Of a stretch of 64,000 nucleotides of DNA, positions 46,152-64,000 are shown in pieces. The DNA lies in contig NZ_NJIC01000036.1 in assembly GCF_013620825.1 (NCBI RefSeq), positions 1 to 64,000 of the forward strand. Direction: 5' to 3'. A model generated the notes under the pieces. The model worked only from the letters and a program-made list of their open reading frames with translations. It did no database searches and was not told the origin of the DNA. A program made the position numbers and the translations under genes. The stretch is from Rhodanobacter sp. PCA2 (GTDB lineage Bacteria > Pseudomonadota > Gammaproteobacteria > Xanthomonadales > Rhodanobacteraceae). How positions within the stretch are numbered: the first letter of the stretch is position 1; every line of letters begins with the position of its first letter.

Positions 46152-46859
46152 TCACGTCGACGCGAGCATGCTCCGGTAGTCGCGCGGCGGCATGCCCACG
46201 GTGGCCTTGAACTGGCGCGCGAACGAACTCTGGTCGGCGAAGCCGCAGGCCAGGCCGATCGCCGCCACGCTGTCCTCGCCCTGCAGCATGCGCATCGCCG
46301 CCTCGATGCGCAGCTTGGTCAGCACCTGCTGCGGCGTGAGCTGGAACACCCGGCGGAAATGCCGCTCCAGTTGCGCCACCGAAAGCTCGGCCAGCGCCGC
46401 CAGCGTCGCCACGCGGACGTTCTCCGCGTAGTGCTCCTGCAGGTGGGCGAGCACCCGGCGCAGGCGCAGGTAGGTCGGATGGCGGCCGTCCGGCTGGCCC
46501 AGGTCGCGCGAGATGCCGATCACGCCGCCGATGCCGCCGTCCTGGCGCAGCGGGCGCTTGAACGTCAGGCACCAGCCCGGCGTCCGGTTCGAAAAGATGT
46601 GCACCTCGAGCTGGTTCTCGATCACCTCGCCCTCCAGCACGCGCCGGTCCTGCGACGCGTACGAGCCGCCCAGGGTCGCGGGGAACAGTTCGGTCACGCT
46701 GCGGCCGATCACGTCCTCGCGGCGCTTGAGGCCCAGCCGGCGCACCAGGGTGAGGTTGGCGTGCGTGTAGCGTCCGGTGGCGTCCTTCACGAAGAACACC
46801 ACGTCGGGCAGCGCGTCGAACAGCGCCTCCAGCTCGTTCGCCGAAATTGTCGTTTCCAT
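46152..46859 (-). CDS. AraC-family transcriptional regulator with N-terminal PAS domain
   Basis: A 235-residue regulator. A PAS domain spans about residues 8-115 ([49 protein letters not shown]). Two helix-turn-helix motifs of AraC type follow (about 140-235: [20 protein letters not shown] and [20 protein letters not shown]). ATG 46859 (METTISANE). It is divergent from the hydroxyproline epimerase gene with 131 bases between, so it probably controls the hydroxyproline operon. The PAS domain may bind hydroxyproline or an intermediate; this is inference. It converges with ptsI. Confidence 0.9.
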
Positions 46860-46990
46860 CGCGGGGCTCCGACAGGACGCGGGGCGGGCGCATCGCCCGC
46901 CGCGGCACGCAGCCGGAGTATGCAGATTTCCGCATCCGTGGGCCACAAGCGGCCATAGACGCGCGGCGGCCGCGGCACCAGCATGGACCC

Positions 46991-47932
46991 ATGACTACGA
47001 TAGACGTGATCGACTCGCATACCGGCGGCGAACCCACCCGTGTCGTCATCGGCGGATTCCCCGACCTCGGCCCCGGCCCACTGCCTGAACAGCGCGAGCG
47101 CTTCCGTCGCGACTTCGACCGCTGGCGCAGCGCGATCGCCTGCGAACCGCGCGGTTCCAGCACCGTGGTCGGCGCCCTGCTGGTGCCGCCGCAGAGTGCG
47201 GACGCCTGCACCGGGGTGATCTTCTTCAACAACGTCGGCTACCTGGGCATGTGCGGCCACGGCACCATAGGCGTGGTGCGCACGCTGCAGCACCTGGGTC
47301 GCATCGGTCCCGGCCGCCACCGCATCGACACGCCGGTGGGCACGGTGGGCGCGGAGCTGCACGCGGACGGCCGCGTCACCATCGACAACGTGGAGAGCTA
47401 CCGCCATGCGGCGGGCGTGGCGGTGGACGTGCCGGGCTACGGCCGCGTCAGCGGCGACGTGGCCTGGGGCGGCAACTGGTTCTTCATCACCCGCGACACG
47501 CCGCTGCCGCTGGAGATCCGCCACCAGCGCGCGCTGACCACGTACACCGAGGCGATCCGCCACGCGCTGGAAGCGGCCGGCATCACCGGCGCGGACGGCG
47601 GCGAGATCGACCACATCGAGGTCAACACCGCCTCGCCGGTGGACGGCATGGACGGCCGCAACTTCGTGCTGTGTCCCGGCCTGGCCTACGACCGCTCGCC
47701 CTGCGGCACCGGCACCAGCGCCAAGCTGGCCTGCCTGGCCGCGGACGGCAAGCTCGCGCCTGGCGCCACCTGGCACCAGGAAGGCATCCTCGGCAGCGTG
47801 TTCGAGGGCCGCTACGCGCCAGGCGAACGCGGCGTGCGCCCGCAGATCACCGGCACCGCGTTCGTGGTGGCGCGCAGCACCTTGCTGTTCGACGACGCGG
47901 ACGCCTTCGCCTGGGGCAGCGGCGCGGAATGA
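46991..47932 (+). CDS. 4-hydroxyproline 2-epimerase (proline racemase family)
   Basis: A 313-residue cofactor-free epimerase that interconverts trans-4-hydroxy-L-proline and cis-4-hydroxy-D-proline. Both catalytic cysteines are present: Cys88 in [12 protein letters not shown] and Cys238 in [12 protein letters not shown]. The second cysteine argues against trans-3-hydroxyproline dehydratase, which lacks it. The start [15 protein letters not shown]-like [16 protein letters not shown] is typical. Genes for all later steps of the D-hydroxyproline route follow, which settles the substrate as 4-hydroxyproline rather than proline. It overlaps the next gene by four bases. Confidence 0.93.
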
Positions 47933-49041
47933 GCGGCAGCACGGCCACGTTCGACCTGATCGTCGTCGGCGCCGGCATCGTCGGCGCCAGTTGCGCCGAC
48001 GCCGCCAGCGCGGAAGGCATGCGCGTCGCCATCGTGGAACCCGGCCCGATCGGCGGCGGTGCGACGGCGGCGGCGATGGGTCATCTCGTGGCCATGGACG
48101 ACGATCCCGCCGAACTCGCGCTGGCCAGCTATTCGCTTGGACTGTGGGAAAGCTTCGCCGACCTGAAGGAAGCCGAATTCAGCCGCTGCGGCACGCTGTG
48201 GGTGGCTCGCGACGACAGGGAACTTGCCGCGGCCGCCGCACGCATCGCGCGCCTGAAAGCGGCGGACCGCGACGCCCGGCTGCTGGATGCCGCGAGTCTC
48301 CACGAACTCGAACCCGCGCTGGTCCAGGGCCTCGCCGGCGGCATGCTGGTGGAGCGCGAAGCCGTGGTGTATCCGCCGCGCGTGGCGAATCACCTGGTGC
48401 GCCGCGCGCAATCGCGCGGCACGCGATTGTTTGCCGGCCGCCGCGCGCAGGCGCTGTACCGCGGCGGCGTGCAACTCGACGACGATACGCGCCTGGGCGG
48501 CCCCGTGCTGGTCGCCACCGGCTGCGCGCTGCCCGACCTGTTGCCGATGCTGCCGATGCGCGCGCGCAAGGGCCACCTCGTCATCACCGACCGCTACCCG
48601 GGGCTGATCCGCCACCAGTTGCTGGAGCTGGGCTACGCCGACAGCGCGCACGGCGACGCGGACAGCAGCGTGGCGTTCAACGTGCAGCCGCGGCCGACGG
48701 GACAGATCCTGATCGGCTCCTCGCGCGAATTCCAGGCGAACGACGCCAGCGTCTCGCCCTCGATGGTGCAGCGCATGCTCGAACGCAGCTTCGCCTTCGT
48801 GCCGCGCCTGCGCGGATTGCAGGCGCTGCGCGTCTGGACCGGCTTCCGCCCCACCACGCCGGATGGACGTCCGTATCTCGGCGCCGTGCCTGGCGCGGTC
48901 GACCAGTGGGTGGCCGCGGGCCACGAAGGCCTGGGCGTCACCACCGCGCTGGGCAGCGCGAAGCTGATGATCGACCTGATCCAGGGCCGCCGGCCCGCCA
49001 TCGACCCCGCGCCGTACTCGCCCTGGAGGATGGCCGCATGA
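47929..49041 (+). CDS. FAD-dependent D-hydroxyproline dehydrogenase, DAO-type catalytic subunit
   Basis: A 370-residue D-amino-acid oxidase-like flavoprotein. The dinucleotide fold is [20 protein letters not shown], followed by [17 protein letters not shown]. The C-terminal FAD-contact segment is [20 protein letters not shown] and [19 protein letters not shown]. In hydroxyproline clusters this subunit oxidises cis-4-hydroxy-D-proline to pyrroline-4-hydroxy-2-carboxylate and passes electrons to the two iron-sulfur/flavin subunits encoded next. It overlaps both neighbours by four bases (ATGA). Confidence 0.88.
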
Positions 49042-49283
49042 GCGCCATGGTGCGGCTCACCGTGAACGGCCAGGCGGTGGAAGTGCCTGCCGGCGCCAGC
49101 GTCGCCGCCGCGGTGGCGCACGCGACGCAGCGCTTCCGCCGCTCCGTGCACGATGCGCCACGCGCGCCGCTGTGCGGCATGGGCGTGTGCTTCGAATGCC
49201 GCGTGAGCGTGGATGGCGTGGTCCATGTGCGCGCCTGCCTCACGCCTGCGGGCGAAGGCATGCAGGTGATTACCGATGCGTGA
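49038..49283 (+). CDS. Small (2Fe-2S)-binding subunit of D-hydroxyproline dehydrogenase (HcnA-like)
   Basis: An 81-residue plant-type ferredoxin-like protein. Four cysteines are Cys46, Cys51 and Cys54 (PLCGMGVCFECRV) and Cys67 (VRACLTP). VRLTVNGQAVEVPAGASVAA is the ubiquitin-like beta-grasp start. It resembles HcnA and the small subunits of octopine/D-hydroxyproline dehydrogenases, shuttling electrons between the two flavoproteins. It overlaps the next gene by eight bases. Confidence 0.9.
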   Translation: MSAMVRLTVNGQAVEVPAGASVAAAVAHATQRFRRSVHDAPRAPLCGMGVCFECRVSVDGVVHVRACLTPAGEGMQVITDA

Positions 49284-50568
49284 GCATTACGACGTCCTCG
49301 TGGCAGGCGCCGGGCCGGCCGGCCTGGCCGCGGCGCAGGCCGCGGTATCGCATGGCGCGCGGGTCGGCCTGCTCGACATGCAGGCGCGCCCCGGTGGACA
49401 GGTCTGGCGACACGACGTGCGCCTGCCCGCGGCGCCGGCCGCGCGGCAAGCCATCGAAGCCCTGCAAGGCGTCAAGCTGCTGGCGCGCCACAGCGTGGTC
49501 ACTGCCGAACCATCGGCGCTGCGCGTGGAAACGCCGACAGGTTCGGACTTGCTTTCGTTCGGCTCGCTGGTGCTCGCCACCGGCGCGCGCGAACTGCTAC
49601 TGCCGTTCCCCGGCTGGACGCTGCCCGGCGTGACCGGCGCCGGCGGCCTGCAGGCGCTGGCCAAGCAGGGCTGGCCGGTGGCCGGCAAGCGCGTCGTGAT
49701 CGGCGGCAGCGGACCGCTGCTGCTGGCGGCGGCGGATACGCTGCGCAAGCACGGCGCGCACGTGCTGGGCATGCACGAGCAGGCTTCCGCCGCCACGGTG
49801 CGCTCCTTCGCATGGCAGCTGCGCCGGTGGCCCGCCCGTGCCGCGCAGGCAGCCGGCCTGCGCCTGCGTCTCGCCGGCGTGCCGTACCGCTGCGGTTCCT
49901 TCGTGCGCGAAGCGATCGGCGGCGACGCCGTGCGCGGCGCCGTCATCGAAACGCCGCACGGCACGCGGCAGGTCGAATGCGACCTGCTGGCCGTGGGCTA
50001 CGGGCTGGTGCCCAACACCGAGCTGGCCGCGTTGCTGGGTTGCGCGCTCGACGAAGCGGACGCCCATCCGCGCGTGCGGGTCGACGCGCTGCTGCGCACC
50101 AGCGTGGCGAACATCCATGCCGCCGGCGAAGCCTGCGGCATCGGCGGCCTCGCGGTCGCGCGCATCGAAGGCGCGATGGCCGGCCACATGGCGGCCGGCG
50201 ATGTCGCGGCCGCCAGCGCACTGCTGCCGCGGCGCGACCGCGAACGGCGCTTCGGCGCCCTGCTCGCCCGGCATTTCACGCTGGACCCACGCCTGCGCGA
50301 GCTGGCCGACGAGCGCACCCTGGTCTGCCGCTGCGAGGACGTCGCGCTCGGCGCGCTGGCCGGCTACGACGACGCCCGCGCCGCCAAGCTCGCCACCCGC
50401 TGCGGCATGGGTGCCTGCCAGGGCCGCATCTGCGGCACGGCGCTGGCCGAACTGGGCCGCTTTCCACGCGGCGGCGCACGACCGCCGATCTTCCCCGCCC
50501 GCCTGGCCACGCTGGCCGGACTGGCCGACTTTTCCCCTGACGACGCACGACGAGGCAATCGACCATGA
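49276..50568 (+). CDS. FAD/NAD(P)-type oxidoreductase subunit with C-terminal BFD-like [2Fe-2S] domain (HcnB-like)
   Basis: A 430-residue flavoprotein. The FAD fold is YDVLVAGAGPAGLAAAQAAV and the second nucleotide fold is KRVVIGGSGPLLLAAADTLR. The C-terminal bacterioferritin-associated ferredoxin-like domain has Cys351 and Cys353 (LVCRCEDV), Cys376, Cys381 and Cys386 (RCGMGACQGRICG). This combination is typical of the alpha subunit of multi-subunit D-hydroxyproline, octopine or hydrogen-cyanide-type dehydrogenases. It overlaps the deaminase gene at ATGA. Confidence 0.9.
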   Translation: MREHYDVLVAGAGPAGLAAAQAAVSHGARVGLLDMQARPGGQVWRHDVRLPAAPAARQAIEALQGVKLLARHSVVTAEPSALRVETPTGSDLLSFGSLVLATGARELLLPFPGWTLPGVTGAGGLQALAKQGWPVAGKRVVIGGSGPLLLAAADTLRKHGAHVLGMHEQASAATVRSFAWQLRRWPARAAQAAGLRLRLAGVPYRCGSFVREAIGGDAVRGAVIETPHGTRQVECDLLAVGYGLVPNTELAALLGCALDEADAHPRVRVDALLRTSVANIHAAGEACGIGGLAVARIEGAMAGHMAAGDVAAASALLPRRDRERRFGALLARHFTLDPRLRELADERTLVCRCEDVALGALAGYDDARAAKLATRCGMGACQGRICGTALAELGRFPRGGARPPIFPARLATLAGLADFSPDDARRGNRP

Positions 50569-51470
50569 GCAACGCTTCCCTGTGGCACGGCGTGATTCCC
50601 GCCATCACCACCCCGTTCACCGCCGACGGCAAGGTCGACCACGACTTCCTTGCCACCCACGCGCGCACGCTGATCGACAGCGGCTGCAAGGGCATCGTGC
50701 CGCTGGGCTCGCTGGGCGAGGCGGCCACCCTGACGTTCGACGAGAAGCTGGCGATCATCCGCACCCTGGTGAAGGCGCTGGACGGCCGCGCGCCGGTGAT
50801 CCCCGGCATCGCCGCGCTGTCCACCGACGAGGCGGTGCGCCTGGCCCGCGAGGCCAAGGCGGCCGGCGCGGCGGCCCTGATGGTGCTGCCGCCGTACGTC
50901 TACTCCACCGACTGGCGCGAGATGGGCGCGCACCTGCGCGCGGTGATCGCGGCCACCGACCTGCCGTGCATGCTCTACAACAACCCGATCGCCTACAAGA
51001 CCGACTTCTCGCCCGAGCAGATCGCCGAGCTGGCGCATGCCTACCCCAACGTGCAGGCCGTGAAGGAATCCTCCGGCGACGTGCGCCGCTTTGCCGCCCT
51101 GCGTTCGCTGCTTGGTGATCGCCTGGTGCTGCTGGTGGGCATGGACGACGCGATCGTCGAAGGCGTGGCGATGGGCGCGCGCGGCTGGATCGCGGGGCTC
51201 GTCAACGCGTATCCGAAGGAGTCGGTGAAGCTGTTCGAGCTGGCGCGCGACGGCGGCGCCGACGCGGCCGCCGAGCTGTATGCCTGGTTCCTGCCGCTGC
51301 TGCGCCTGGACACCGTGCCGAAGTTCGTGCAGCTGATCAAGCTGGTGCAGGAAAAGGTCGGCCTGGGCAGCGAGCGCGTGCGCGCGCCGCGACTGGTGGT
51401 GGAAGGCGCCGAGCGCGAGGCCGCGCTGCGCGTGATCGACCACGCCATCGCCCACCCGCCGGTGCTCTGA
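50565..51470 (+). CDS. Dihydrodipicolinate synthase family protein, probable pyrroline-4-hydroxy-2-carboxylate deaminase
   Basis: A 301-residue TIM-barrel class I lyase. The Schiff-base lysine is Lys167 in VQAVKESSGDVRR, and Tyr138 sits in MLYNNPIAY. SGCKGIVPLGSLGEAATLTF is the DapA-like phosphate-loop segment. In this context it should convert pyrroline-4-hydroxy-2-carboxylate to 2-oxoglutarate semialdehyde plus ammonia. A true DapA role is unlikely given the operon. One base separates its stop from the next start. Confidence 0.9.
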   Translation: MSNASLWHGVIPAITTPFTADGKVDHDFLATHARTLIDSGCKGIVPLGSLGEAATLTFDEKLAIIRTLVKALDGRAPVIPGIAALSTDEAVRLAREAKAAGAAALMVLPPYVYSTDWREMGAHLRAVIAATDLPCMLYNNPIAYKTDFSPEQIAELAHAYPNVQAVKESSGDVRRFAALRSLLGDRLVLLVGMDDAIVEGVAMGARGWIAGLVNAYPKESVKLFELARDGGADAAAELYAWFLPLLRLDTVPKFVQLIKLVQEKVGLGSERVRAPRLVVEGAEREAALRVIDHAIAHPPVL

Positions 51471-51471
51471 G

Positions 51472-53070
51472 ATGGCTGCGCAACCCCTGCTGATCGCGGG
51501 CGACTGGCGACCGGCCACCGAGCTGGTCGCCAGCTTCCGCGCCGAGAACCCGGCCACCGGCAACGCCATCGGCGCGGAATATCCGGTCAACGGCGCGGCC
51601 GACGTGGAAGCCGCCATCGCCGCCGCCGCCGCGGTGGCGGACGAACTGGCGCGCACGCCGCCGGAACGGATCGCCGCCTTCCTCGAAGCCTACGCGGCCG
51701 GCATCGAACGCGACGCGGAAACGCTGGTCGCGCTCGCCCACGCCGAAACCGCATTGCCTGCGGAAACGCGACTGGCCAAGGTGGAGCTGCCGCGCACCAG
51801 CGGCCAGTTGCGCCAGGCAGCGCGCGCCGTGCGCAACTTCAGCTGGACGCAGCCGGTGATCGACACGGCAGCGGGCTTGCGCAGCCACCATGCACCGCTG
51901 CACAAGCCGGTGCTGGTGTTCGGGCCGAACAACTTCCCGTTCGCCTTCAACGCGATCGCCGGCAGCGATTTCGCCTCGGCGATCGCCGCGCGCAATCCGG
52001 TGATCGCGAAGGCGCATCCCTCGCACCCGGCCACCAGCGAGCGGCTGGCGCAGCTGGCGCACGCCGCGTTGCGCGAAGCCGGCCTGCCCGCGGCTGCGGT
52101 GCAGATGCTCTACCAGTTCGACTCCGCGCTCGGCCTGAAGCTGGCCGGCGATCCGCGACTGGGCGCCATCGGCTTCACCGGCAGCCGCGCCGGCGGGCTG
52201 GCGCTGAAAGCCGCTGCCGATGCCGCCGGCGTGCCGGCCTACGTGGAGTTGTCCAGCGTCAATCCGGTCTTCCTGTTGCCTGGCGCGCTGGCCGAGCGCG
52301 GCGCGGCGCTGGCGCAGGAATTCTTCAGCTCCTGCACGATGGGCAGCGGCCAGTTCTGCACCAATCCCGGCGTCGTGGTGGTACCGCGCAGTGACGACGG
52401 CGACGCCTTCGTCGCTGCCGCCGTGGCGCATTTCGGCAACGCCGCCGCGGGCGTGCTGTTTTCGCGCGGCGTGCTGGAACACCTCCAGCGCAGCGTGGAC
52501 ACCTTGCGCAAGGCGGGCGCCGATCTGCTCGTCGGCGGCGCCGCGGCAGGCCCGGGCCATCGCTACCAGCCGACCTTGCTGCAGGTGGATACCGCGCAAT
52601 TCCTGCGTGCGCCGCAGGCGCTGCAGACCGAAGCCTTCGGCCCGGTCAGCCTGCTGGTGCGCGTCGACGATGCCGCGCAGATGGCTGTGCTGGCGGCGGC
52701 GTTCGAAGGCAACCTCACCGGCACCTTGTACAGCGCCGCCGACGGCAGCGACGCGGCTGCATGGACCGCGGTTGCCGACGCCCTGCGTCCGCGCGTGGGC
52801 CGGCTGATCGGCAACCGCATGCCGACCGGCGTGGCGGTGAGCCCGGCGATGAACCACGGCGGCCCTTATCCCAGCACGGGCCACGCAGGCTTCACCGCGG
52901 TCGGCATGCCGGCGGCGATCCAGCGTTTCACCGCCCTGCACTGCTACGACCACGTGCCGGACGCGCAACTGCCGCCCGAACTGCGCGACCACAACCCCGG
53001 CGGCGTGGCGCGGCAGATCGACGGCCACTGGTGTGTCGACGATGTCGACGCACGGGGCACGACGGCATGA
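51472..53070 (+). CDS. 2-oxoglutarate semialdehyde (2,5-dioxovalerate) dehydrogenase, NADP-type ALDH
   Basis: A 532-residue aldehyde dehydrogenase. Cofactor fold: FGPNNFPFAFNAIAGSDFAS. Lys180 is in NPVIAKAHPSHP, the general base Glu259 in YVELSSVNPVFLLP and the catalytic Cys296 in GSGQFCTNPG. The GQFCTNPG context and length fit the type III 2-oxoglutarate semialdehyde dehydrogenases of hydroxyproline and pentose routes. It oxidises the last intermediate to 2-oxoglutarate for the TCA cycle. It overlaps the M24 peptidase gene by four bases. Confidence 0.92.
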   Translation: MAAQPLLIAGDWRPATELVASFRAENPATGNAIGAEYPVNGAADVEAAIAAAAAVADELARTPPERIAAFLEAYAAGIERDAETLVALAHAETALPAETRLAKVELPRTSGQLRQAARAVRNFSWTQPVIDTAAGLRSHHAPLHKPVLVFGPNNFPFAFNAIAGSDFASAIAARNPVIAKAHPSHPATSERLAQLAHAALREAGLPAAAVQMLYQFDSALGLKLAGDPRLGAIGFTGSRAGGLALKAAADAAGVPAYVELSSVNPVFLLPGALAERGAALAQEFFSSCTMGSGQFCTNPGVVVVPRSDDGDAFVAAAVAHFGNAAAGVLFSRGVLEHLQRSVDTLRKAGADLLVGGAAAGPGHRYQPTLLQVDTAQFLRAPQALQTEAFGPVSLLVRVDDAAQMAVLAAAFEGNLTGTLYSAADGSDAAAWTAVADALRPRVGRLIGNRMPTGVAVSPAMNHGGPYPSTGHAGFTAVGMPAAIQRFTALHCYDHVPDAQLPPELRDHNPGGVARQIDGHWCVDDVDARGTTA

Positions 53071-54275
53071 CGACGGCACGACAGATCGGCGGCCTCGACT
53101 TCGCCCAGGCGCGGGCGATGCTGGCGCCGTGGGCGGCACCGGCGGCGGCCATCGCCGGCGCCGAATACGAACAGCGGCTGGAACGCGCCCGGACCCTGCT
53201 GCGCGAACAGCGCGTCGATGCGCTGCTGATCACCGCCGGCGCCTCGCTGCGCTATTTCAGCGGGATCGGCTGGGGCGCCAGCGAACGGCTGCTCGGCCTG
53301 CTGCTGACGACGCACGGCGAGCCGCTGGTGATCTGTCCCGCGTTCGAAGCCGGCTCGCTGGCCCACGCGCTGCGCATCCCCGCCGGGCTGCGCTACTGGG
53401 AAGAGCACGAAGACCCGCAGGCGCTGGTCGCCGATGCGCTGCGCGAACGCGGCGCCGGCAGCCTCGCGCTCGATCCGGCCGCACCGGGCGTGGTGGCCGA
53501 ACGCCTGCGCGCGGCACTCGGCGGCAAGCCGGTGGTCGACGCCAGCGCCATCGTCGACGGCTGCCGCATGTGCAAGTCGCCGACCGAACTCGCCCTGATG
53601 GAACAGGCCACCGCCATGACGCTGCAGGTGCACCGGCTGGCCGCGGGACTGGTGCACGAAGGCGTCAGCAGTATCGAGCTGACGCGCTTCATCGACGACG
53701 CGCACCGTGCGCTCGGCGCCGACAACGGCTCCACCTTCTGCATCGTGCAGTTCGGCCACGCCACGGCGTATCCGCACGGCATCCCCGGCGAGCAGCGGCT
53801 GGCCGAAAACGAGCTGGTGCTGATCGATACCGGCTGCAGCGTGCAGGGCTACCAATCCGACATCACCCGCACCTACATCTTCGGCACGCCAACGACGGAG
53901 CAGGCGCGCATCTGGGCGCTGGAGCAGGCGGCGCAGCGCGCTGCCTTCGAGGCAGTGCGGCCTGGCGTGACATGCGCCGCCGTGGATGCCGCTGCACGCG
54001 CCATGGTGGAACGCGCCGGGCTCGGCCCCGATTACCGCCTGCCCGGCATCCCGCACCGCACCGGCCACGGCTGCGGCCTGAGCATCCACGAGACGCCTTA
54101 CCTGGTGCGCGGCAACGCCACCGAGCTGCAGCCGGGCATGTGCTGCAGCGACGAACCGATGATCGTGATCCCCGACCGTTTCGGCGTGCGGCTGGAGGAT
54201 CACTTCCATGTCACCGACGACGGCGCCGCCTGGTTCACGCCGCCGTCGCCCGCGATCGACCAGCCATTTGCCTGA
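53067..54275 (+). CDS. M24 family Xaa-Pro peptidase (aminopeptidase P / prolidase-like)
   Basis: A 402-residue pita-bread metalloprotease. All five metal ligands are present: Asp254 (VLIDTG), Asp265 (QSDITRTY), His334 (RTGHGCGL), Glu363 (CSDEPMI) and Glu377 (RLEDHF). The N-terminal creatinase-like domain covers about 1-165. Such enzymes cut bonds next to proline or hydroxyproline. No signal peptide, so it would act on imported peptides. Being translationally coupled to the hydroxyproline operon, its likely job is to free hydroxyproline from peptides. Confidence 0.92.
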   Translation: MTTARQIGGLDFAQARAMLAPWAAPAAAIAGAEYEQRLERARTLLREQRVDALLITAGASLRYFSGIGWGASERLLGLLLTTHGEPLVICPAFEAGSLAHALRIPAGLRYWEEHEDPQALVADALRERGAGSLALDPAAPGVVAERLRAALGGKPVVDASAIVDGCRMCKSPTELALMEQATAMTLQVHRLAAGLVHEGVSSIELTRFIDDAHRALGADNGSTFCIVQFGHATAYPHGIPGEQRLAENELVLIDTGCSVQGYQSDITRTYIFGTPTTEQARIWALEQAAQRAAFEAVRPGVTCAAVDAAARAMVERAGLGPDYRLPGIPHRTGHGCGLSIHETPYLVRGNATELQPGMCCSDEPMIVIPDRFGVRLEDHFHVTDDGAAWFTPPSPAIDQPFA

Positions 54276-56186: not shown

Positions 56187-57755
56187 ATGCCATCGACGGG
56201 AAAATTCCATCGCCAGCTCAGCCTCACCGACCTGACCTTCATCGGGCTGGGCGCGATCTTCGGTTCCGGCTGGCTGTTCTCGGCCAGCCACGTCTCGGCG
56301 ATCGCCGGGCCGGCCGGCATGCTGTCCTGGCTGATCGGCGGCGCCGCCGTGCTGCTACTGGGCATCGTCTATTGCGAGCTGGGCGCCGCGCTGCCCCGCG
56401 CCGGCGGCGTGGTGCGCTACCCGGAGTATTCGCACGGGCTGCTGCTGGGCTCGCTGATGGGCTTCATCACCCTGATCGCGTTTTCCAGCCTGATCGCGAT
56501 CGAGACCGTGGCCTGCCGCCAGTACGCCGCGGCCTGGTTCCCCGCGCTGAGCCGCGATGCGGCGGGTAACCCCACCGTGCTGGGCTGGCTGGTGCAGCTC
56601 GCGGTGCTGACGCTGTTCTTCGCGCTCAACTATTCCAGCGTGAAGACCTTCGCCAAGGCGAACAACCTCATCAGCGTCTTCAAGTTCGTGGTACCGCTGC
56701 TGGTGATCGTGGTGCTGCTGGCGCACTTCCAGCCGGGCAACATGACTGCGCACGGCTTCGCCCCGAACGGCTTCGCCGGGGTGGAAGGCGCGGTTTCGGC
56801 GGGCGGCATCATCTTCGCCTACCTGGGGCTGACGCCGATCATCTCGGTCGCCAGCGAGGTGCGCGACCCGCAGCGCACGATCCCGATCGCGCTGATCCTG
56901 TCGGTGCTGCTGTCCACCGTGATCTACCTGCTGCTGCAGCTGGCGTTCCTGGGCAGCATTCCCCCGCACCTGCTGGACAAGGGCTGGGGCGACACCGGCA
57001 CGCTGTTCTCGCTGCCCTACCACGACATCGCGCTGACGCTGGGCATGGGCTGGCTGGCCACGCTGGTGGTCTGCGACGCGGTGATCTCGCCCAGCGGCAC
57101 CGGCAACATCTACATGAACGCCACGCCCCGGGTGGTCTACGGCTGGGCGCGCAGCGGCTCGTTCTTCAAGGTGTTCACGCGCATCGACGTCAGGTCCGGC
57201 ATTCCGCGCCCCGCGCTGTGGCTGACCTTCGCGCTGTCGATCTTCTGGACATTGCCGTTCCCCTCGTGGCAGGCGCTGATCAGCGTGGTGTCGGCGGCGC
57301 TGGTGCTGAGCTACGCGGTGGCGCCGATCACCGTGGCGGCGCTGCGCCGCAACGCGCCGGAGCTGCCGCGGCCGTTCCGCGTGCGCGCCCTGGGCGTGCT
57401 CGGGCCGGCCTCGTTCGTGATCGCCACGCTGATCGTGTACTGGTCCAGCTGGCAGACGGTGTCGTGGCTGCTGGGGCTGCAGCTCGTGCTGTTCGCGATC
57501 TACGTGCCGTGGAGGCTGTCCTCGCCCGACGGCCGCATGCGGCTGCGCCAGGAGCTGCGCTCGTCGTGGTGGCTGGTGGTCTACTACGCGCTGCTGATCG
57601 CGCTGTCCTGGCTGGGCACGTTCGGCGGCCGCGGCGTCATCGGCCATCCCTGGGATACCGCGGCCGTCGCCGTGGTCGGCGTGGTCATCTACTACTGGGG
57701 CGCCTCCACGGGCCTGCCCGCGCACCTGCTCGACCTGGGCAGCGACGACGACTGA
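56187..57755 (+). CDS. Amino acid permease, APC superfamily
   Basis: A 522-residue inner-membrane carrier with about twelve helices. The first helix has FIGLGAIFGSGWLFSA, the APC unwound glycine motif. GGIIFAYLGLTPIISVASEVRD is the helix 6 region with the acidic residue typical of amino acid/polyamine carriers. The N-terminus resembles YveA/AspT-like acid-amino-acid symporters more than AAT permeases. In context the cargo may be hydroxyproline, proline or short peptide-derived amino acids (inference). ATG 56187. Confidence 0.88.
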   Translation: MPSTGKFHRQLSLTDLTFIGLGAIFGSGWLFSASHVSAIAGPAGMLSWLIGGAAVLLLGIVYCELGAALPRAGGVVRYPEYSHGLLLGSLMGFITLIAFSSLIAIETVACRQYAAAWFPALSRDAAGNPTVLGWLVQLAVLTLFFALNYSSVKTFAKANNLISVFKFVVPLLVIVVLLAHFQPGNMTAHGFAPNGFAGVEGAVSAGGIIFAYLGLTPIISVASEVRDPQRTIPIALILSVLLSTVIYLLLQLAFLGSIPPHLLDKGWGDTGTLFSLPYHDIALTLGMGWLATLVVCDAVISPSGTGNIYMNATPRVVYGWARSGSFFKVFTRIDVRSGIPRPALWLTFALSIFWTLPFPSWQALISVVSAALVLSYAVAPITVAALRRNAPELPRPFRVRALGVLGPASFVIATLIVYWSSWQTVSWLLGLQLVLFAIYVPWRLSSPDGRMRLRQELRSSWWLVVYYALLIALSWLGTFGGRGVIGHPWDTAAVAVVGVVIYYWGASTGLPAHLLDLGSDDD

Positions 57756-57796: not shown

Positions 57797-60169
57797 ATGG
57801 ACCGTCGCCGTTTCCTGCAAGGCATCGCCGCAACCGGCGTCGCGGCCGGGCTGGCTGCCGCCTCCCGTCCGGGATCGGCTGCCGCAGCCGGCACGCATCC
57901 TTCACCGGCGAAGCCCGCGCCTCCGCCGGTGCGCGTGCCGCTGGCGCAGGCGTCGACGCAAGGCTGCCAGGCCGTGGCGCGTTTCGTCGACGACGCGCAA
58001 TCCTGGGACGTGCTGGAAGATTTCAGCCACCCGGACGGCGACCTGATCCTCGCCAGCGGCGACCTCGCCTGCGTGCTGCGCAAGCGCACCGAAGCCGCCT
58101 ACGACGAGGCGGAGACCGCCTACCTCGGCATGAAGCTGGCCGATATCGCGCGGGCCGAAGCCGACCTGCTGGCCGAACGCCTGCTGCGGCACGGCGAACC
58201 GGACGAACGGGAAGTGCGGCTTGCGGCGCCGCCGCCGGCCGCGCATCTGAACCCGGAGGACTACTACGGCCGCCTGCCCTGGACCACCTTCGTCGGCACC
58301 CGCCAGTGCGCCGACACCATGCCGGTGTATACCTCCGGCAGCACGCGCAGCTATCACGCCGACCAGGTATTCGCCGACCTGCACGATCCCATGCGGGTCG
58401 CGCATCGCCGCGAAGGATTGCTGGGCGGCTGGCTGCCCGCCGTGCACAAGGTGGCGCCGATCGACCAGGGGCGCTGGTACGACGTGCTGGTGTTCGCCGA
58501 CGTGGACGCCACCGACCGCTTCGTGGTGCAGACCTGGCATCGCACCGCACTCGTCGAACACGGCAGGCTCGGCCAGGTCTGCTACGGCCACAGCTATCCC
58601 GACTACCCGCCGCGGCGGGTGGCGCCGGATGCCGCCGCGTTCTATCGCGCGCTGCTGCGCTTCCACGATGAGTGGCAGCGCGAACTGGCCGATATCAGTC
58701 CAGCCACGCTGCCGGCGCCCGGCTGGGCCGACATGGCCCGCCACGCCTTCGCCCGCGAGCTGGTGGTGCGCCCGGGCGGCGACTATCCCAAGTACGGCGC
58801 GGTGGACCGCGACTACTACGGCAACGAATACGACGGCTTCCAGGACACCTTCACCAGTTCGCTGTACGCGAACCTGGAGTGGGGCCGCCATACGCAGGCC
58901 GCCGCAGTATTGGACGGCTATTTCACCGACTTCGTGCAGCCCGACGGCATGATCAACATGCGCGGCGCCGAGACCGGGCAGTTCGGCCTCACCCTCTCGC
59001 TGCTGGCGCGCTACCTGCACTACACCGGCGACCGCGCGCTGCTGGCCAGGCACCGCGACAAGATCGCGGCGACCGCGCAGCTCCTGCTGGAGCTGCACGA
59101 CGCCAGCCTGCGCCTGCCGCCGGACGATCCGGGCCACGGCCTGATCCACGGCTGGAACGAATCGGACGCCTGCCTGTTTCCCGATCCCCGCCTGTGGTGG
59201 AAACCGTACTACGCCAACAGCGCACTGGCCGCGCGCGGACTGGCCGACATCGCCGACGCATGGCCGCAGATCGCCGCTGCCGACGGCGCCGCCACGGCCC
59301 GCCGCTGGCGGGAGCGAGCCGACGCGCTGCGCGAGCAGACCGTGCGGACGCTGCGCGCCAACGTGCGCCACGACCTCGAGCCACCCTACGTCGGGCCGCT
59401 GCCCGGCGTGCGGCTCACCTTCCGCGAATCGCTGGCCCGCGAAAAGCCCAGCGAACAGCAGTGGCCGCACCGTGCCTACGCCGAGCTGCTGCAGGCCGAC
59501 GTGCTGCCCGACGAGCTGGCCCACCTCGTGATCGACTGCATGCGCGGGCATGGCGCCACCAGCATCGGCGTGGTGGCGAACATCGGACCGCCGGACGACA
59601 AGAGCCGCGACATCCTCGGCTTCATTTCCTACGGCTATGCGCAGCAGCTGCTGCGGCTCGACCGGATCGACGAATACCTGCTGTTCCTGTACGCGCACCG
59701 CCACCACGCGCATACGCCGGGCAGCTGGACTGCCGGCGAGGTATCGGACATCGGCGGCGGCATGCCGCTGTTCTGCATGCCCGCGCAAATGACCATACCG
59801 TTGCTGCTGCGCTGGATGCTGGTGTTCGAGGACAGCGCCGGCCGCACCCTGTACCTGGGCCGCGCCGTGCCGCGCGCATGGCTGGCCAGCCGCGAACCGA
59901 TCGGCATCGACAACGCCCCTACCCGCTGGGGCCGCACCGGCTTCCGCCTGCAGGCCGCGCAGGACGGCACGATCCACGGCACGGTCAACCTCCCCGGGCG
60001 AAGCGCGCCCGCGGAGACCTGGCTCAGCCTGCGGCTGCCGGCCGGCAAGCAGCTGGCCGACGTGGAACTCGACGGCCGGGCGGCAAGCGCCGATGATCGC
60101 CGCGGCGACGCCGTACGACTCCGCGGCACTCCCGGCCAGTCCATCCGCATCCGTGCCCGCTGCAGCTGA
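57797..60169 (+). CDS. Tat-exported six-hairpin glycosidase-like protein of unknown specificity
   Basis: A 790-residue protein. The twin-arginine signal MDRRRFLQGIAATG is clear. Residues about 60-300 look like a beta-sandwich domain. Residues about 310-690 have the (alpha/alpha)6 toroid style, with DGFQDTFTSSLYANLEWG, GYFTDFVQPDGMINMRGAET and LIHGWNESDACLFPDPRLWW, which recall GH15/GH63/GH78/GH95-type helical barrels. A small C-terminal beta domain ends at IRIRARCS. I cannot place it in a family. Acidic residues in DTFTSS and WNESD are candidate catalytic groups (speculation). It sits 41 bases after the permease gene and just before an alpha-galactosidase and a beta-L-arabinofuranosidase, so a role on the same glycan is likely. 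Confidence 0.75.
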   Translation: MDRRRFLQGIAATGVAAGLAAASRPGSAAAAGTHPSPAKPAPPPVRVPLAQASTQGCQAVARFVDDAQSWDVLEDFSHPDGDLILASGDLACVLRKRTEAAYDEAETAYLGMKLADIARAEADLLAERLLRHGEPDEREVRLAAPPPAAHLNPEDYYGRLPWTTFVGTRQCADTMPVYTSGSTRSYHADQVFADLHDPMRVAHRREGLLGGWLPAVHKVAPIDQGRWYDVLVFADVDATDRFVVQTWHRTALVEHGRLGQVCYGHSYPDYPPRRVAPDAAAFYRALLRFHDEWQRELADISPATLPAPGWADMARHAFARELVVRPGGDYPKYGAVDRDYYGNEYDGFQDTFTSSLYANLEWGRHTQAAAVLDGYFTDFVQPDGMINMRGAETGQFGLTLSLLARYLHYTGDRALLARHRDKIAATAQLLLELHDASLRLPPDDPGHGLIHGWNESDACLFPDPRLWWKPYYANSALAARGLADIADAWPQIAAADGAATARRWRERADALREQTVRTLRANVRHDLEPPYVGPLPGVRLTFRESLAREKPSEQQWPHRAYAELLQADVLPDELAHLVIDCMRGHGATSIGVVANIGPPDDKSRDILGFISYGYAQQLLRLDRIDEYLLFLYAHRHHAHTPGSWTAGEVSDIGGGMPLFCMPAQMTIPLLLRWMLVFEDSAGRTLYLGRAVPRAWLASREPIGIDNAPTRWGRTGFRLQAAQDGTIHGTVNLPGRSAPAETWLSLRLPAGKQLADVELDGRAASADDRRGDAVRLRGTPGQSIRIRARCS

Positions 60170-60206
60170 TCCATTCCCGCCGACCGCCACCGCCATCGAG
60201 GTTCCC

Positions 60207-61424
60207 ATGCGCCTGTACCGCACCGCACTACTCGCCGCCAGCCTGCTGGCCTGCAGCACCGCCATGGCCACGGCGCCACAGGCCCACGCGGCTACGGTCG
60301 CAGCCACGCCGCCGATGGGCTGGAACAGCTGGAACTTCTTCGCGGAGAAGGTCAGCGACGCCGACGTGCGCGCCGCGGCCGACGCGCTGGTCAACAGCGG
60401 CATGCGCGACGCCGGCTATGTCTACGTGAACATCGACGACGGCTGGCAGGGCGAACGCGACGCGCAGGGCACGATCCATCCCAACGCGCGCTTTCCCGAC
60501 ATGAAGGCGCTGGCCGACTACGTCCACGCCCGCGGGCTGAAGCTCGGCATCTACAGCTCGCCGGGCAGCAAGACCTGCGCCGGCTACACCGGCTCGCTGG
60601 GGCACGAGGCCCAGGACGCACGCACCTATGCCAGTTGGGGCGTCGACTACCTGAAGTACGACCTGTGCAGCTACATCGAGGACGTGATGCAGGCCAAGGC
60701 GCCGAACGATCCCGACCAGCAGATGCGGCTGATGATCGCGGCCTACCGCACGATGCACGATGCCTTGCGCACCGCCGGCCGGCCGATCGTGTTCTCGATG
60801 TGCCAGTACGGCTGGGACGCCTCGTGGGAATGGGCCGCCGGCCCGGACATCGGCGCCAACCTGTGGCGCACCACCGGCGACATCACGCCGGAATGGGACC
60901 GCATCTACGCGATCGCCTCGCAGCAGGCCGGCCTGGCCCGCTATGCGGGTCCCGGCCACTGGAACGACCCCGACATGCTGGAAGTCGGCAACGGCAAGCT
61001 CAACGACGCGGAAAACCGCGCGCACTTCAGCTGGTGGGCGATGCTGGCCGCGCCGCTGCTCGCCGGCAACGATCTCGCCCACATGCCGGCGCCGGTGAAG
61101 GCGGTGCTGACCAACAAGGCCGTGATCGCGATCGACCAGGACCCGCTGGGGCGGCAAGCCACGCGCGCCTACGCCGAGGGCGAGACCGAAGTGTGGACGC
61201 GTCCGCTCCAGGGCGGCGGCATGGCCGTCGCGATCTTCAACGTGGGCAGCGACCGCCATGCCGGCACGCATCCCTTCCACCTCGACCTCGCGCGGCTCGG
61301 CCTGCACGGCGCGCAGCAGGGTACCGATCTCTGGAGCGGCAAGCCGCTGACGCTGAGCGAACACATGCCGATCGCGCTGCGCCACCACGACGTGCTGATG
61401 GTGCGGATCGACCAGCCGCATTGA
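60207..61424 (+). CDS. Exported alpha-galactosidase, GH27
   Basis: A 405-residue enzyme with a Sec signal peptide (LLAASLLACSTAMATAPQAHA, quoted in part: ALLAASLLACSTAMA). The mature start TPPMGWNSWNFF is the GH27 signature. The catalytic nucleophile is Asp152 in YLKYDLC, and the acid/base is Asp225 in WRTTGDI; WNDPDMLEVGNG is the substrate loop. GH27 enzymes release terminal alpha-galactose (some beta-L-arabinopyranose). Next to a beta-L-arabinofuranosidase and a hydroxyproline operon, serine-linked galactose of extensin is a possible substrate (inference). Confidence 0.94.
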   Translation: MRLYRTALLAASLLACSTAMATAPQAHAATVAATPPMGWNSWNFFAEKVSDADVRAAADALVNSGMRDAGYVYVNIDDGWQGERDAQGTIHPNARFPDMKALADYVHARGLKLGIYSSPGSKTCAGYTGSLGHEAQDARTYASWGVDYLKYDLCSYIEDVMQAKAPNDPDQQMRLMIAAYRTMHDALRTAGRPIVFSMCQYGWDASWEWAAGPDIGANLWRTTGDITPEWDRIYAIASQQAGLARYAGPGHWNDPDMLEVGNGKLNDAENRAHFSWWAMLAAPLLAGNDLAHMPAPVKAVLTNKAVIAIDQDPLGRQATRAYAEGETEVWTRPLQGGGMAVAIFNVGSDRHAGTHPFHLDLARLGLHGAQQGTDLWSGKPLTLSEHMPIALRHHDVLMVRIDQPH

Positions 61425-61551: not shown

Positions 61552-61570
61552 TTGACACAAGACGGCTTGT
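61552..61570 (+). promoter_or_regulatory. Possible promoter and operator upstream of the GH127 gene
   Basis: TTGACA at 61552-61557 overlaps the inverted repeat ACAAGACGGCTTGT (61557-61570). It lies 97 bases upstream of the GH127 start. No good -10 sequence is visible at the expected spacing, so the promoter call is weak. Confidence 0.25.
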
Positions 61571-61666
61571 CCACATGACGGCAGGATGAAAGCGTGCATC
61601 GGGGGATGCGCGCATTCGCGCCAGGGGTTGCTCCGCTGGCGACATCCAGGCTTTCGGGGATCGGGC

Positions 61667-63631
61667 ATGTCAGACGACGCGGGATATCGCAGGCAGTTTC
61701 TCAAGGGCGCGGCCACGGCGCTGGCGTCCGCCATGCTGGCGCCCAGGGCGCTCGCCTTCGCTCCCGACGTGGCCGATCCGCCGCCTTCCGCCACGGTCGC
61801 CGGCGCCGCCCCGGCCTCCCGCGAACAGCCTGTCTACCGCATGCAGGGTTTCCCCCTGAACCAGGTACGCCTGCTCGACGGCGAGTTCGCCACCGCGGCC
61901 GCCGCCAACCTGCAGTATCTGCGCAGCCTGCCGGTGGACCGGCTGGCGCACAGCTTCCGCGTGCAGGCCGGCATCGCCTCGCACGCCGCACCGCTGGGCG
62001 GCTGGGAAAAACCGGACTGCGAATTGCGCGGCCATTTCAGCGGCGGCCATTACCTGTCCGCCGTCGCGCTGGCCTGGGCCAGCCACGGCGACCGGACGCT
62101 GAAGGAACGGGGCGACCAGCTGGTCGCGGCACTCGCCGCCTGCCAGCAGGCCAACGGCTACCTCAGCGCATTCCCCGAAAATTTCTTTGACCGCCTCAGC
62201 CGCGGCCAGAAGGTGTGGGCGCCGTTCTACACCATCCACAAGATCCAGGCCGGCATGCTCGACATGTACCTGCATGCCGGCAACCAGCAGGCGTTGCAGG
62301 TCGCCACCGGCATCGGCAACTGGGTCGTGCGCTGGCTCAACGGCTTCTCCGACGACGAGATCGCGCACATCCTGAAAGTGGAATACGGCGGCCTCAACGA
62401 ATCGATGTACGAGCTGTACGCCGTCACCGGCAACGACCGCTACCTCGACGCCGCGCACCGCTTCGACCAGGCCTCGCTGTTCGTCCCGCTGGCGGCCCAT
62501 CGCGACGAGCTGCAAGGCCTGCACAGCAACACCCAGGTGCCCAAGATCATCGGCGCGGCACGACGCTACGAGCTGACCGGCGAACCGCGACACCGGCGCA
62601 TCGCCGAATTCTTCTGGGAAACCGTCACCCGGAACCGCACCTACGCCACCGGCGGCTCCAGCAACGACGAGTTCTGGAAGACCGGGCCGGGCGACCTCAA
62701 GGGGCAGCTCGGGCTCTACAGCGCCGAATGCTGCGTCGCCTACAACCTGCTCAAGCTCACCGATCACGTCTACCGCTGGAGCGGCGACCCGCGCGCCTTC
62801 GACTACTACGAGCGCACGCTCTACAACGCGCGCCTGGGCACCCAGGACGACGACGGCATGAAGCTCTACTACTACTCGCTGCGTCCGGGCGGAGCGAAGG
62901 TGTTCAACACGCCCACCGATTCGTTCTGGTGTTGCACCGGCACCGGCGCCGAGGAGTTCGCGCGCTTCAACGGCAGCATCTATTTCCGCGACGGGCAGGA
63001 TCTCTACGTCAACCTGTTCATCCCCTCCGAACTGGAATGGCCGCAGCAGAAACTGACCCTGCGCCAGGAAACCGCTTTCCCGCGCGAGCCGCGCACCCGC
63101 CTCAGCCTCAAGCTGGGCGCACCGGCCCGCTTCGCCCTCAACCTGCGCGTGCCCGAATGGATCGGCCCCGATGCCAGGGTGCGTCTCAACGGCGAAGCCC
63201 TCGACGTGTTCGCCTCGCCCGGCAGCTACCTGACCCTGCAACGCGAATGGCACGACGGCGACCGCATCGAACTCGAACTGCCGATGCGGCTGCGCAGCGT
63301 GGCCCTGCCGGGCGACGACAGCCTGCGCGCGATGCTGTACGGACCGCTGGTGCTGGCGGCGCGCCTCGGCAGCCATGGCCTGACCCATGCCATGCAGTAC
63401 ACCGGCATGTGGGCCACGCCCGATCCCGAACCCAAGCCGGAACCGGCGCCCCGGATCGCGTCGGACAAACCGGACGACACCGGCTGGATGCGCATCGTGT
63501 CGAAAGACGAACTGCGTTTCGAAGCCACCACCCGCCAGGGCACCGTTGCCGTGGCGCCGCTGAACAGGATTCAGGGCGAGCGCTACGCGGTGTACTGGCA
63601 AAACGCATCGGACGCATCCGACAGCAGTTGA
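61667..63631 (+). CDS. Tat-exported beta-L-arabinofuranosidase, GH127/GH146 (DUF1680) family
   Basis: A 654-residue glycosidase. The Tat signal YRRQFLKGAATALASAM starts near residue 7. The zinc-cysteine active site of the family is present: Glu354 and Cys356 in YSAECCVAYNLLKL and Cys422-Cys423 in FWCCTGTGAEEFARFNGSIY, with cysteine as the expected nucleophile. The (alpha/alpha)6 barrel is followed by two beta domains. In Bifidobacterium and Xanthomonas, relatives remove beta-L-arabinofuranose from hydroxyproline-linked chains of plant extensin. ATG 61667 is chosen since it begins the Tat peptide. The DUF1680 family identity is clear; the exact linkage is inference. Confidence 0.92.
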   Translation: MSDDAGYRRQFLKGAATALASAMLAPRALAFAPDVADPPPSATVAGAAPASREQPVYRMQGFPLNQVRLLDGEFATAAAANLQYLRSLPVDRLAHSFRVQAGIASHAAPLGGWEKPDCELRGHFSGGHYLSAVALAWASHGDRTLKERGDQLVAALAACQQANGYLSAFPENFFDRLSRGQKVWAPFYTIHKIQAGMLDMYLHAGNQQALQVATGIGNWVVRWLNGFSDDEIAHILKVEYGGLNESMYELYAVTGNDRYLDAAHRFDQASLFVPLAAHRDELQGLHSNTQVPKIIGAARRYELTGEPRHRRIAEFFWETVTRNRTYATGGSSNDEFWKTGPGDLKGQLGLYSAECCVAYNLLKLTDHVYRWSGDPRAFDYYERTLYNARLGTQDDDGMKLYYYSLRPGGAKVFNTPTDSFWCCTGTGAEEFARFNGSIYFRDGQDLYVNLFIPSELEWPQQKLTLRQETAFPREPRTRLSLKLGAPARFALNLRVPEWIGPDARVRLNGEALDVFASPGSYLTLQREWHDGDRIELELPMRLRSVALPGDDSLRAMLYGPLVLAARLGSHGLTHAMQYTGMWATPDPEPKPEPAPRIASDKPDDTGWMRIVSKDELRFEATTRQGTVAVAPLNRIQGERYAVYWQNASDASDSS

Positions 63632-63865
63632 ATGCGTGACGCGTCGATCGCCCCCGCGATGGACGCATCCATGGAACGAACCGAAGGGGCGGGCAACCGC
63701 CTCCGGGAGCCCGTGTGCCCGTCGGCAGGTATCGCCATGCAACAGGCCGGCACGGACACAGCGCCACCACCCGTAGCGCAAGGCCGGTTGCACCGCTCCA
63801 GCCTGCGCCATCCACACACCACGCCGCCCTTCATCCCGCGGCCCACCACGCGAGGACCTCACACC

Positions 63866-64000
63866 ATGGAATCCACCGTCCGCCTGCCCGATCGCGCACC
63901 TTGTCGACGCTCCACGCTGATTGCCCACGCCGTTCGTCTTGCGCTTGTGCTCGGCCTGGCGGGCGGCAGCCTCGTCTTGCACGCGGAGGATGCCGGCACC
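63866..64000 (+). CDS. Start of an exported protein, probably a TonB-dependent receptor (3' truncated by window edge)
   Basis: GAGGA precedes the ATG at 63866. The 45 visible residues hold a basic start and a hydrophobic stretch (LALVLGLAGGSLVLHA) followed by EDAGT, the usual end of a signal peptide. Xanthomonad TonB receptors of carbohydrate loci often begin this way, and the place after a GH127 gene fits. No receptor domain is visible, so this is a guess. The 234 bases before it show no other gene. Confidence 0.55.
   Translation, partial: MESTVRLPDRAPCRRSTLIAHAVRLALVLGLAGGSLVLHAEDAGT

Follow-up and report, generated by a model that had tools for sequence, protein, structure and literature searches.

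Hydroxyproline-rich glycoproteins (HRGPs) are a major protein component of plant walls, and to our knowledge little is known of how bacteria mineralize them. The bacterial operon for hydroxyproline (Hyp) catabolism, as in Pseudomonas, encodes an epimerase, a D-Hyp dehydrogenase, the deaminase LhpC and a ketoglutarate semialdehyde dehydrogenase; TonB-linked carbohydrate or polysaccharide utilization loci place exported glycosidases beside a TonB receptor. Enzymes acting on HRGP sugars have been described in Bifidobacterium longum, whose HypBA1, HypBA2 and HypAA strip beta-arabinose from the Hyp of plant HRGPs, and in Xanthomonas euvesicatoria, whose enzymes of glycoside hydrolase (GH) families GH43, GH121 and GH146 break down Hyp bearing four arabinoses (Ara4-Hyp) stepwise (PMC6085000); XCV2724 has been placed in GH146 (PMC10850190). 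X. euvesicatoria cannot use L-arabinose, a triple glycosidase mutant is still pathogenic, and the enzymes have been suggested to be perhaps now useless; the Discussion of that work names one neighbouring prolyl peptidase and not a Hyp operon (PMC6085000). Here we analyse a locus at the end of a 64,000-nucleotide stretch of Rhodanobacter sp. PCA2 (the window), which makes up the opening 64 kb of the 93-kb contig NZ_NJIC01000036.1 in a genome of 3.9 Mb and 99.99% completeness. Thirteen co-directional genes on the plus strand, from 46991 to contig position 66769, bring together a Hyp operon, two peptidases, a permease, three exported proteins of glycosidase type and a TonB receptor. In agreement with an original prediction made from the window's letters, we consider it quite probable that this locus serves the utilization of plant HRGPs, most likely of extensin type, the sugars being stripped so that the Hyp can be eaten.

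Gene content of the locus

All of the genes named in the original prediction are present and intact, in the order claimed, as judged by Pfam, NCBIfam and a gene model from a codon-usage script whose starts are approximate. The first gene encodes the trans-4-hydroxyproline 2-epimerase HypE (46991–47932); the script places its start at 47006, and the ATG at 46991 fits the family. HypE retains both cysteine motifs, MCGHG and PCGTG, which we take to be catalytic, and scores 441.4 bits against NCBIfam PRK13970, just below the cut-off of 442. Its best PDB match, 4juu (E 1e-152), is 4HypE of X. campestris, among the structures deposited in PMC4113996. Three genes follow that, from their context, would encode the subunits of a D-Hyp dehydrogenase: a D-amino-acid oxidase (DAO)-type FAD subunit (47929–49041), a [2Fe-2S] small subunit (49038–49283; Pfam Fer2_4, E 9e-22) and an FAD/NAD(P)-binding subunit (49276–50568; Pfam Pyr_redox_2, E 4e-30). 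The FAD subunit, called as an open reading frame (ORF), matches NCBIfam D-amino-acid oxidase types below their cut-offs, and its homologue L021:295-1398 matches Pfam DAO at E 1e-64 (stretches read in relatives carry L numbers, genomes G numbers). Comparison of the FAD-subunit gene with plasmids by BLAST gave 94 partial matches, none with 80% coverage. The next two genes encode a pyrroline-4-hydroxy-2-carboxylate deaminase of LhpC type in the DHDPS superfamily (50565–51470; Pfam DHDPS, E 4e-63) and an aldehyde dehydrogenase, probably the alpha-ketoglutarate semialdehyde dehydrogenase (51472–53070; Pfam Aldedh, E 8e-49). Since the NCBIfam matches listed for LhpC are all below cut-off, and the 25 listed for the aldehyde dehydrogenase all far below, both functions are assigned from operon context. 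Epimerase, dehydrogenase, LhpC and semialdehyde dehydrogenase thus stand together, and by domain family and gene order every step of the predicted route from trans-4-Hyp to 2-oxoglutarate is present.

An M24 Xaa-Pro peptidase (53067–54275; Pfam Creatinase_N and Peptidase_M24, NCBIfam PepQ-like below cut-off) is the seventh gene of a tight series that begins with hypE and in which neighbours overlap by 4–8 bases or abut. After a gap of 49 bases comes an exported DUF885 peptidase (54325–56103; Pfam DUF885, E 3e-154), in which a HESSPGH motif is seen in the alignment with PDB 3o0y and whose 39 best matches (identity at least 66%) all sit at lhpC loci of the family. Gaps of 83, 41 and 37 bases precede an APC-superfamily amino acid permease (56187–57755; Pfam AA_permease_2, E 7e-48), a Tat-exported six-hairpin protein (57797–60169) and an exported GH27 alpha-galactosidase-type enzyme (60207–61424), respectively. 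A Tat-exported GH146 beta-L-arabinofuranosidase (61667–63631; longest ORF from 61586) is flanked by larger gaps, of 242 bases on the GH27 side and 315 on the side of the TonB-dependent receptor (63947–64000 and on to contig position 66769, by the codon-model start; its ORF opens at 63632). The possible receptor start seen at the window edge was borne out: the receptor is complete in the contig, so the locus extends beyond the window, and its coding stretch, L002:3632-6766, matches Pfam Plug and TonB_dep_Rec_b-barrel. Judged by eye, the export signals are of Sec type in the DUF885 and GH27 proteins and of Tat type in the six-hairpin and GH146 proteins, the six-hairpin protein scoring below the cut-off of the Pfam TAT model.

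Two variations on this gene set recur in relatives. A second, distant DUF885 gene often stands in tandem with the first (L016, L017, L032, L037, L039 and 7 of 36 Xanthomonadaceae stretches); the two are about 35% identical in Rhodanobacteraceae, and the tandem suggests split peptide specificities. A single-subunit DAO-type dehydrogenase, forming one BLAST cluster, is present in loci that showed no three-subunit enzyme for D-Hyp (L132:16501-17664, L080:3268-4053, L017:14220-15470 and L059:920-2143).

On the minus strand, a PAS-AraC family regulator (46152–46859; Pfam PAS_4 and HTH_18; longest ORF to 46946) diverges from the Hyp operon, and the same divergent neighbour is kept in many relatives. 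Just upstream of the regulator lies a phosphotransferase system (PTS)-type gene group (43609–46136), the last gene of which encodes a phosphoenolpyruvate-utilizing enzyme; it looks unrelated to the locus. A promoter and terminator scan gave no promoter-like site and three plus-strand terminator-like sites, all within genes; a scan of the window for PIP-box-like sites gave 11 matches against 8.75 expected, that is, no signal.

Linkage of the two halves in relatives

We surveyed 233 genomes of the window's family, the window's own included, and found lhpC in 71, a GH146 match in 28 (26 of them close, with identity of at least 59%) and a six-hairpin match in 18. Close GH146 genes lie within 12.6 kb of lhpC in 24 of 26 cases, across seven genera; the exceptions are G231, broken across contigs, and G203, which lacks lhpC. 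The remaining two GH146 matches, of 39% identity in G140 and G141, represent distinct genes located on other contigs. Likewise, 16 of the 18 six-hairpin genes lie within 10.5 kb of lhpC; the exceptions are again G231, split between contigs, and G160, an assembly of 80% completeness in which lhpC had no match. The halves could have been found regularly apart in relatives, an outcome the original prediction had accepted as damaging; the glycosidase half is instead almost never apart. Genes in the related loci were called with the codon-usage script, named by BLAST cluster and assigned by a Pfam scan of one representative per cluster. On this basis a TonB receptor is present in the stretch read for 21 of the 24 linked loci. 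Of the 44 Hyp-only loci, 17 were read, and TonB receptor, GH27, GH146 and six-hairpin genes are absent from all 17. In genera g14 and g20, the latter containing Dyella, the sugar module stands between the permease gene and a Glu/Leu-dehydrogenase gene (L015, L023, L027, L030 and L033); in Hyp-only relatives (L052, L054-L056) the Glu/Leu-dehydrogenase gene directly follows the permease gene. In G020 the module adjoins the Hyp genes on the opposite strand.

For the six-hairpin protein, a scan of one genome per species found 150 relatives and yielded 80 loci, in Xanthomonas, Stenotrophomonas, Pseudoxanthomonas, Rhodanobacteraceae (to which Luteibacter belongs), Sphingomonadaceae, Asticcacaulis, Shewanella and Acidobacteriota. 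Among the 36 stretches from Xanthomonadaceae and the wider order, a TonB receptor is present in 34, GH121 in 21, GH43 in 21 and GH146 in 15. lhpC lies 8–24 kb upstream of the six-hairpin gene on the same strand in 29 of these 36 genomes, and for the remaining 7 the contig does not reach as far as 8 kb upstream; that both genes share a contig was taken from coordinates and read directly in L141, L145 and L146. Upstream in X. hortorum (L141) are GH35-like and S9 dipeptidyl-peptidase-type genes, a permease, DUF885 and the whole Hyp operon. The X. euvesicatoria stretch L097 contains a GH121 gene confirmed by its match to 6m5a (E 7e-212); because this stretch ends after GH43, the GH146 gene is placed near its six-hairpin gene by locus tag only. 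The conserved neighbourhood offers a testable answer to the Xanthomonas puzzle, namely that deglycosylation serves to make the Hyp available as a nutrient.

The stretches from Xanthomonas and its relatives also show other recurrent genes. Between permease and six-hairpin gene in L068-L104 are found GH35-like/DUF5597 (25 of 36) and S9 dipeptidyl-peptidase-type genes, a kumamolisin-type S8/S53 protease, DUF5694 and a small ORF of about 98 amino acids. Several Xanthomonas stretches have the six-hairpin gene, TonB receptor and GH146 without GH121 and GH43 (L076, L079, L089, L092, L094, L095, L102 and L103), others have GH121 and GH43 (L082, L083 and L096), and X. arboricola shows both states.

Rearranged versions of the locus occur at greater distance. 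On one strand and in a row, the Acidobacteriaceae stretch L137 carries the six-hairpin gene, GH27, an uncharacterized ORF of 209 residues, HypE, LhpC, aldehyde dehydrogenase, GH146 and GH51, and another acidobacterial stretch (L117) carries HypE, the DAO subunit, LhpC, aldehyde dehydrogenase, DUF885, the six-hairpin gene, an S9 peptidase and DUF5695. In Sphingomonas (L132) and Stakelama (L080), HypE, LhpC and a single-subunit DAO-type dehydrogenase surround the six-hairpin and GH146 genes. In Granulicella L135 some 25 kb of the same contig separates the Hyp genes from the six-hairpin gene, and Asticcacaulis L138 has an lhpC match (41%) at nearby coordinates. The recurrence of the gene set in relatives indicates that the cluster is more than chance, and the conserved linkage in the family, in Xanthomonas and in the rearranged loci supports the proposal that both halves serve one substrate.

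The six-hairpin protein and its partner glycosidases

The six-hairpin protein matches no Pfam family and no PDB sequence, even at E 10. An AlphaFold2 model built from 68 rows (the window protein and 67 of 87 homologues, the 20 dropped coming from groups already well represented) reached pLDDT 87 and pTM 0.90, superseding an earlier, poor model from 16 close homologues (pLDDT 65). The six-hairpin (alpha/alpha)6 glycosidase superfamily, of which the protein is a possible member, combines a beta-sandwich at the N-terminus, an (alpha/alpha)6 barrel and a second beta-sandwich at the C-terminus; the model has strands at the N- and C-termini and a helical middle. Foldseek returned 81 matches at E <=0.001 (best E 2.5e-8), all distant, with TM <=0.47 among the 50 matches listed; they include GH78 rhamnosidases, GH116, GH121, GH127, GH146 and cellobiose phosphorylases. 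With no sequence match in Pfam or PDB and this predicted fold, the protein is plausibly the founder of a new glycosidase family. A tree of the 68 proteins broadly follows taxonomy, with Shewanella beside Rhodanobacteraceae. Carboxylates that are invariant across the 68 rows include E455, D457 and E648 of the 790-residue protein.

A GH146 gene is near the six-hairpin gene in 14 of the 24 linked family loci, in 15 of 36 Xanthomonadaceae, 13 of 29 Acidobacteriota and 4 of 6 alphaproteobacterial stretches, with or without GH121 and GH43. As the six-hairpin gene is a recurrent neighbour of GH146, a beta-L-arabinofuranose linkage within the Hyp glycan is our preferred candidate for the protein's target; a role on serine-linked galactose is a possible alternative.

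Two other identities were considered for this protein. That it is a divergent GH121 was rejected on sequence: profile comparison with four Xanthomonadaceae GH121 rows gave 0.8% probability, and it has no PDB sequence match. We also asked whether six-hairpin and GH27 proteins are interchangeable alpha-galactosidases. Across the 24 linked loci, the window's included, the six-hairpin gene occurs alone in 11, GH27 alone in 5, both in 3 and neither in 5; because all GH27-only loci belong to one genus (g14) and L137 has both genes, the idea is at most a weak lead and was set aside. A further recurrent gene, DUF5695 (PF18951, about 870 amino acids), is found in the six-hairpin stretches of 11 of 29 Acidobacteriota loci (L105, L109, L112, L114, L117-L120, L122, L130 and L133) and of Stakelama (L080), and possibly encodes another enzyme for the same substrate.

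The GH146 protein (Pfam Beta-AFase-like_GH127_cat, E 3e-112) had been labelled GH127/146-type. Its matches to PDB 5opj, which we take to be BT0349 (E 2e-100), and to 8k7y, the GH146 enzyme Bll3HypBA1 (E 1e-59), are far stronger than those to GH127 structures, of which the best is 4qjy (E 1e-24) and HypBA1, 3wkw, reaches E 1e-9; we therefore assign it to GH146 and drop the GH127 part of the label. BT0349 and Bll3HypBA1 are both classed as GH146 (PMC10850190). In the numbering of the 681-residue ORF, the residues that line up with 5opj are E381 and C383 (in AECC), C449-C450 (in FWCC) and the Glu in NDEFW; the roles of the zinc-site Glu, Cys and Cys-Cys and of the acid/base Glu are known from Bll3HypBA1 (PMC10850190). 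The active-site residues are thus intact, as had been noted, both here and in the cysteine motifs of HypE. From these matches, the protein is a predicted beta-L-arabinofuranosidase that would act on arabinosylated Hyp (Ara-Hyp). The GH27 protein matches Melibiase_2 (E 3e-63) and Melibiase_C, both above cut-off; its best PDB matches are alpha-galactosidases, with GH27 beta-L-arabinopyranosidases weaker. Its target is probably the alpha-galactose on serine that has been described for extensin motifs (PMC8012813).

Proposed function, rival readings and known systems

The gene content suggests the following route. Exported enzymes would strip the Hyp-rich backbone of its shielding sugars: GH146 would take beta-L-arabinofuranose off Hyp, GH27 would probably take alpha-galactose off serine, and the six-hairpin protein may remove another Hyp-linked or serine-linked sugar. 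Glycopeptide fragments could then enter via the TonB receptor, the exported DUF885 peptidase would cut the exposed peptide, the permease would import the products and the Xaa-Pro peptidase would free Hyp, which HypE, the three-subunit D-Hyp dehydrogenase, LhpC and the aldehyde dehydrogenase would convert to 2-oxoglutarate. These activities, their order, their regulation and the extensin substrate are all predicted from sequence.

Arabinose itself is an unlikely reward. AraA was not found in the window genome by a search positive in E. coli and four other controls, and the 3 genomes in which it occurs, of 61 searched, belong without exception to other families of the order. The only IlvD/Edd-type dehydratases of the window genome are IlvD and Edd, with no arabinonate dehydratase of that type. 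With neither AraA nor an extra IlvD/Edd-type dehydratase, the nutrients gained are likelier to be the carbon and nitrogen of Hyp, together with peptide nitrogen; arabinose as the main reward was rejected on these two L-arabinose routes, the rejection covering AraA and the IlvD/Edd type. What arabinose feeding would look like in the family is suggested by G203 (L036, 482-18929), where a close GH146 gene is accompanied by GH27 genes and where an oxidative pathway of L-arabinose/galactonate type takes the place of the Hyp operon. Its neighbours encode an L-arabinonate-dehydratase-like protein (858 bits, cut-off 882), an AraD1-family protein, a ketoglutarate-semialdehyde-dehydrogenase-like protein (480 bits, cut-off 770), a sugar porter and a galactonate dehydratase.

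Several observations weigh against HRGP utilization as the function of the locus. The G203 arrangement means that GH146 alone is no proof of HRGP use, and arabinose routes other than the two tested could exist in the window genome. The expectation that the halves stay together held for the glycosidase genes; the Hyp half is often alone: 44 of the 71 lhpC genomes have the operon without GH146 or the six-hairpin gene, and the sugar module is best regarded as an optional extension of it. Within the 24 linked loci the TonB receptor is missing from 3, and the content of the module varies as counted above. Farther afield, the six-hairpin stretch includes Hyp genes in only 3 of the 29 loci from Acidobacteriota and 2 of the 6 from Alphaproteobacteria, some of these stretches being short, and none lie near the six-hairpin gene of Shewanella L113. 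A HypAA-type GH43 was not found in six family genomes by a search positive in X. hortorum, nor was GH121 found in 61 genomes by a search without a positive control, which leaves removal of the alpha-linked fourth arabinose (the alpha-1,3-arabinose of Ara4-Hyp) unaccounted for in the window genome. The original prediction of 'complete use' was too strong on both counts, as the two tested L-arabinose routes are absent and no HypAA-type GH43 or GH121 partner was found.

One could read the locus as two unrelated operons that touch, one for Hyp and peptides and the other devoted to pectic arabinan or arabinogalactan, from which arabinose would be the nutrient drawn. The GH146 enzyme BT0349 indeed attacks oligosaccharides derived from arabinan and is encoded within a pectin locus (PMC10850190), the GH146 gene of the window is set apart from its neighbours by 242 and 315 bases, and the GH146 of G203 is part of an arabinose-oxidation locus. 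Such a coincidence is nonetheless very unlikely given the linkage of 24 of 26 close GH146 genes over seven genera, the joining of the same halves in other gene orders in two phyla and a window genome without AraA or an IlvD/Edd-type arabinonate dehydratase. The glycosidases might instead serve host interaction by weakening extensin cross-links or masking elicitors, with Hyp catabolism as incidental clean-up. This would suit the GH121-GH43 operon of X. euvesicatoria, which is HrpX-dependent and induced in plants, but the mutant lacking all three enzymes could still cause disease (PMC6085000), Luteibacter, Dyella, Rhodanobacter and Acidobacteriota carry the six-hairpin gene as well, and the glycosidase genes are joined to genes for catabolism and import, all of which makes the idea improbable.

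The same logic may apply to a different HRGP, be it an arabinogalactan protein, a solanaceous lectin or small Hyp-arabinosylated peptides. Several relatives carry a GH35-like/DUF5597 gene next to the locus, and galactans attached to Hyp are a typical feature of arabinogalactan proteins (PMC8012813); on the other hand, the main substrate of Xanthomonas GH146 is Ara-Hyp (PMC10850190, PMC6085000), the serine-bound alpha-galactose at which GH27 is expected to act belongs to extensin motifs (PMC8012813), and no arabinogalactan-backbone enzyme is among the window locus proteins scanned. We regard this alternative as doubtful while granting it a real chance, and extensin as the likely substrate. Extending HRGP utilization to a wider claim, we see the chances as evenly balanced that the locus represents an undescribed, widespread HRGP-eating system, present in at least two phyla with its genes variously arranged, in which the removal of sugars unlocks the Hyp-rich peptide instead of supplying arabinose as food, the six-hairpin protein founds a new GH family acting on Hyp- or Ser-linked sugars, and the orphan HRGP enzymes of Xanthomonas find their explanation. 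The locus nominates a substrate class for the six-hairpin family, the exported DUF885 peptidases and DUF5695.

How does this locus compare with described systems? With Bifidobacterium longum it shares the stripping of beta-arabinose from Hyp predicted here for GH146, but there the sugar is the nutrient and an ATP-binding cassette (ABC) importer is used (PMC7263609, PMC6085000); the window locus has Hyp catabolism attached, and the two tested arabinose routes are absent. X. euvesicatoria is closer. In its XeHypBA1/XeHypBA2/XeHypAA system a GH146 enzyme acts on Ara-Hyp (PMC6085000), and in L097 a TonB receptor and a six-hairpin gene of the window's families stand beside GH121-GH43, with the Xanthomonas Hyp operon upstream. 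Unlike that system, the window genome shows no GH121 or HypAA-type GH43 match, and the published account treats the three enzymes and one neighbouring peptidase and found no role in pathogenicity (PMC6085000). The in-silico description of HRGP degradation in Latescibacteria similarly proposes GH127 attack on extensin plus peptidases; it is a sugar-centred, genome-wide inventory, and no Hyp catabolic route or joined locus was seen in the portions consulted (PMC4454575). A search of the open-access literature, with subscription literature mostly outside it, recognized no paper that joins HRGP deglycosylation to Hyp catabolism in one locus, in keeping with the suggestion that the unit is possibly undescribed.

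All steps of the Pseudomonas-type Hyp operon are present in the window locus, which adds peptidases, exported glycosidases and a TonB receptor. A utilization locus is marked by co-location and co-regulation of genes for degradation, import and catabolism; here the co-location is present and conserved in relatives. Whereas TonB-linked utilization loci serve sugars, this one pairs its glycosidases with the catabolism of an amino acid. Except for the six-hairpin protein the parts are of known kinds; what appears to be new is the joining of deglycosylation to Hyp catabolism.

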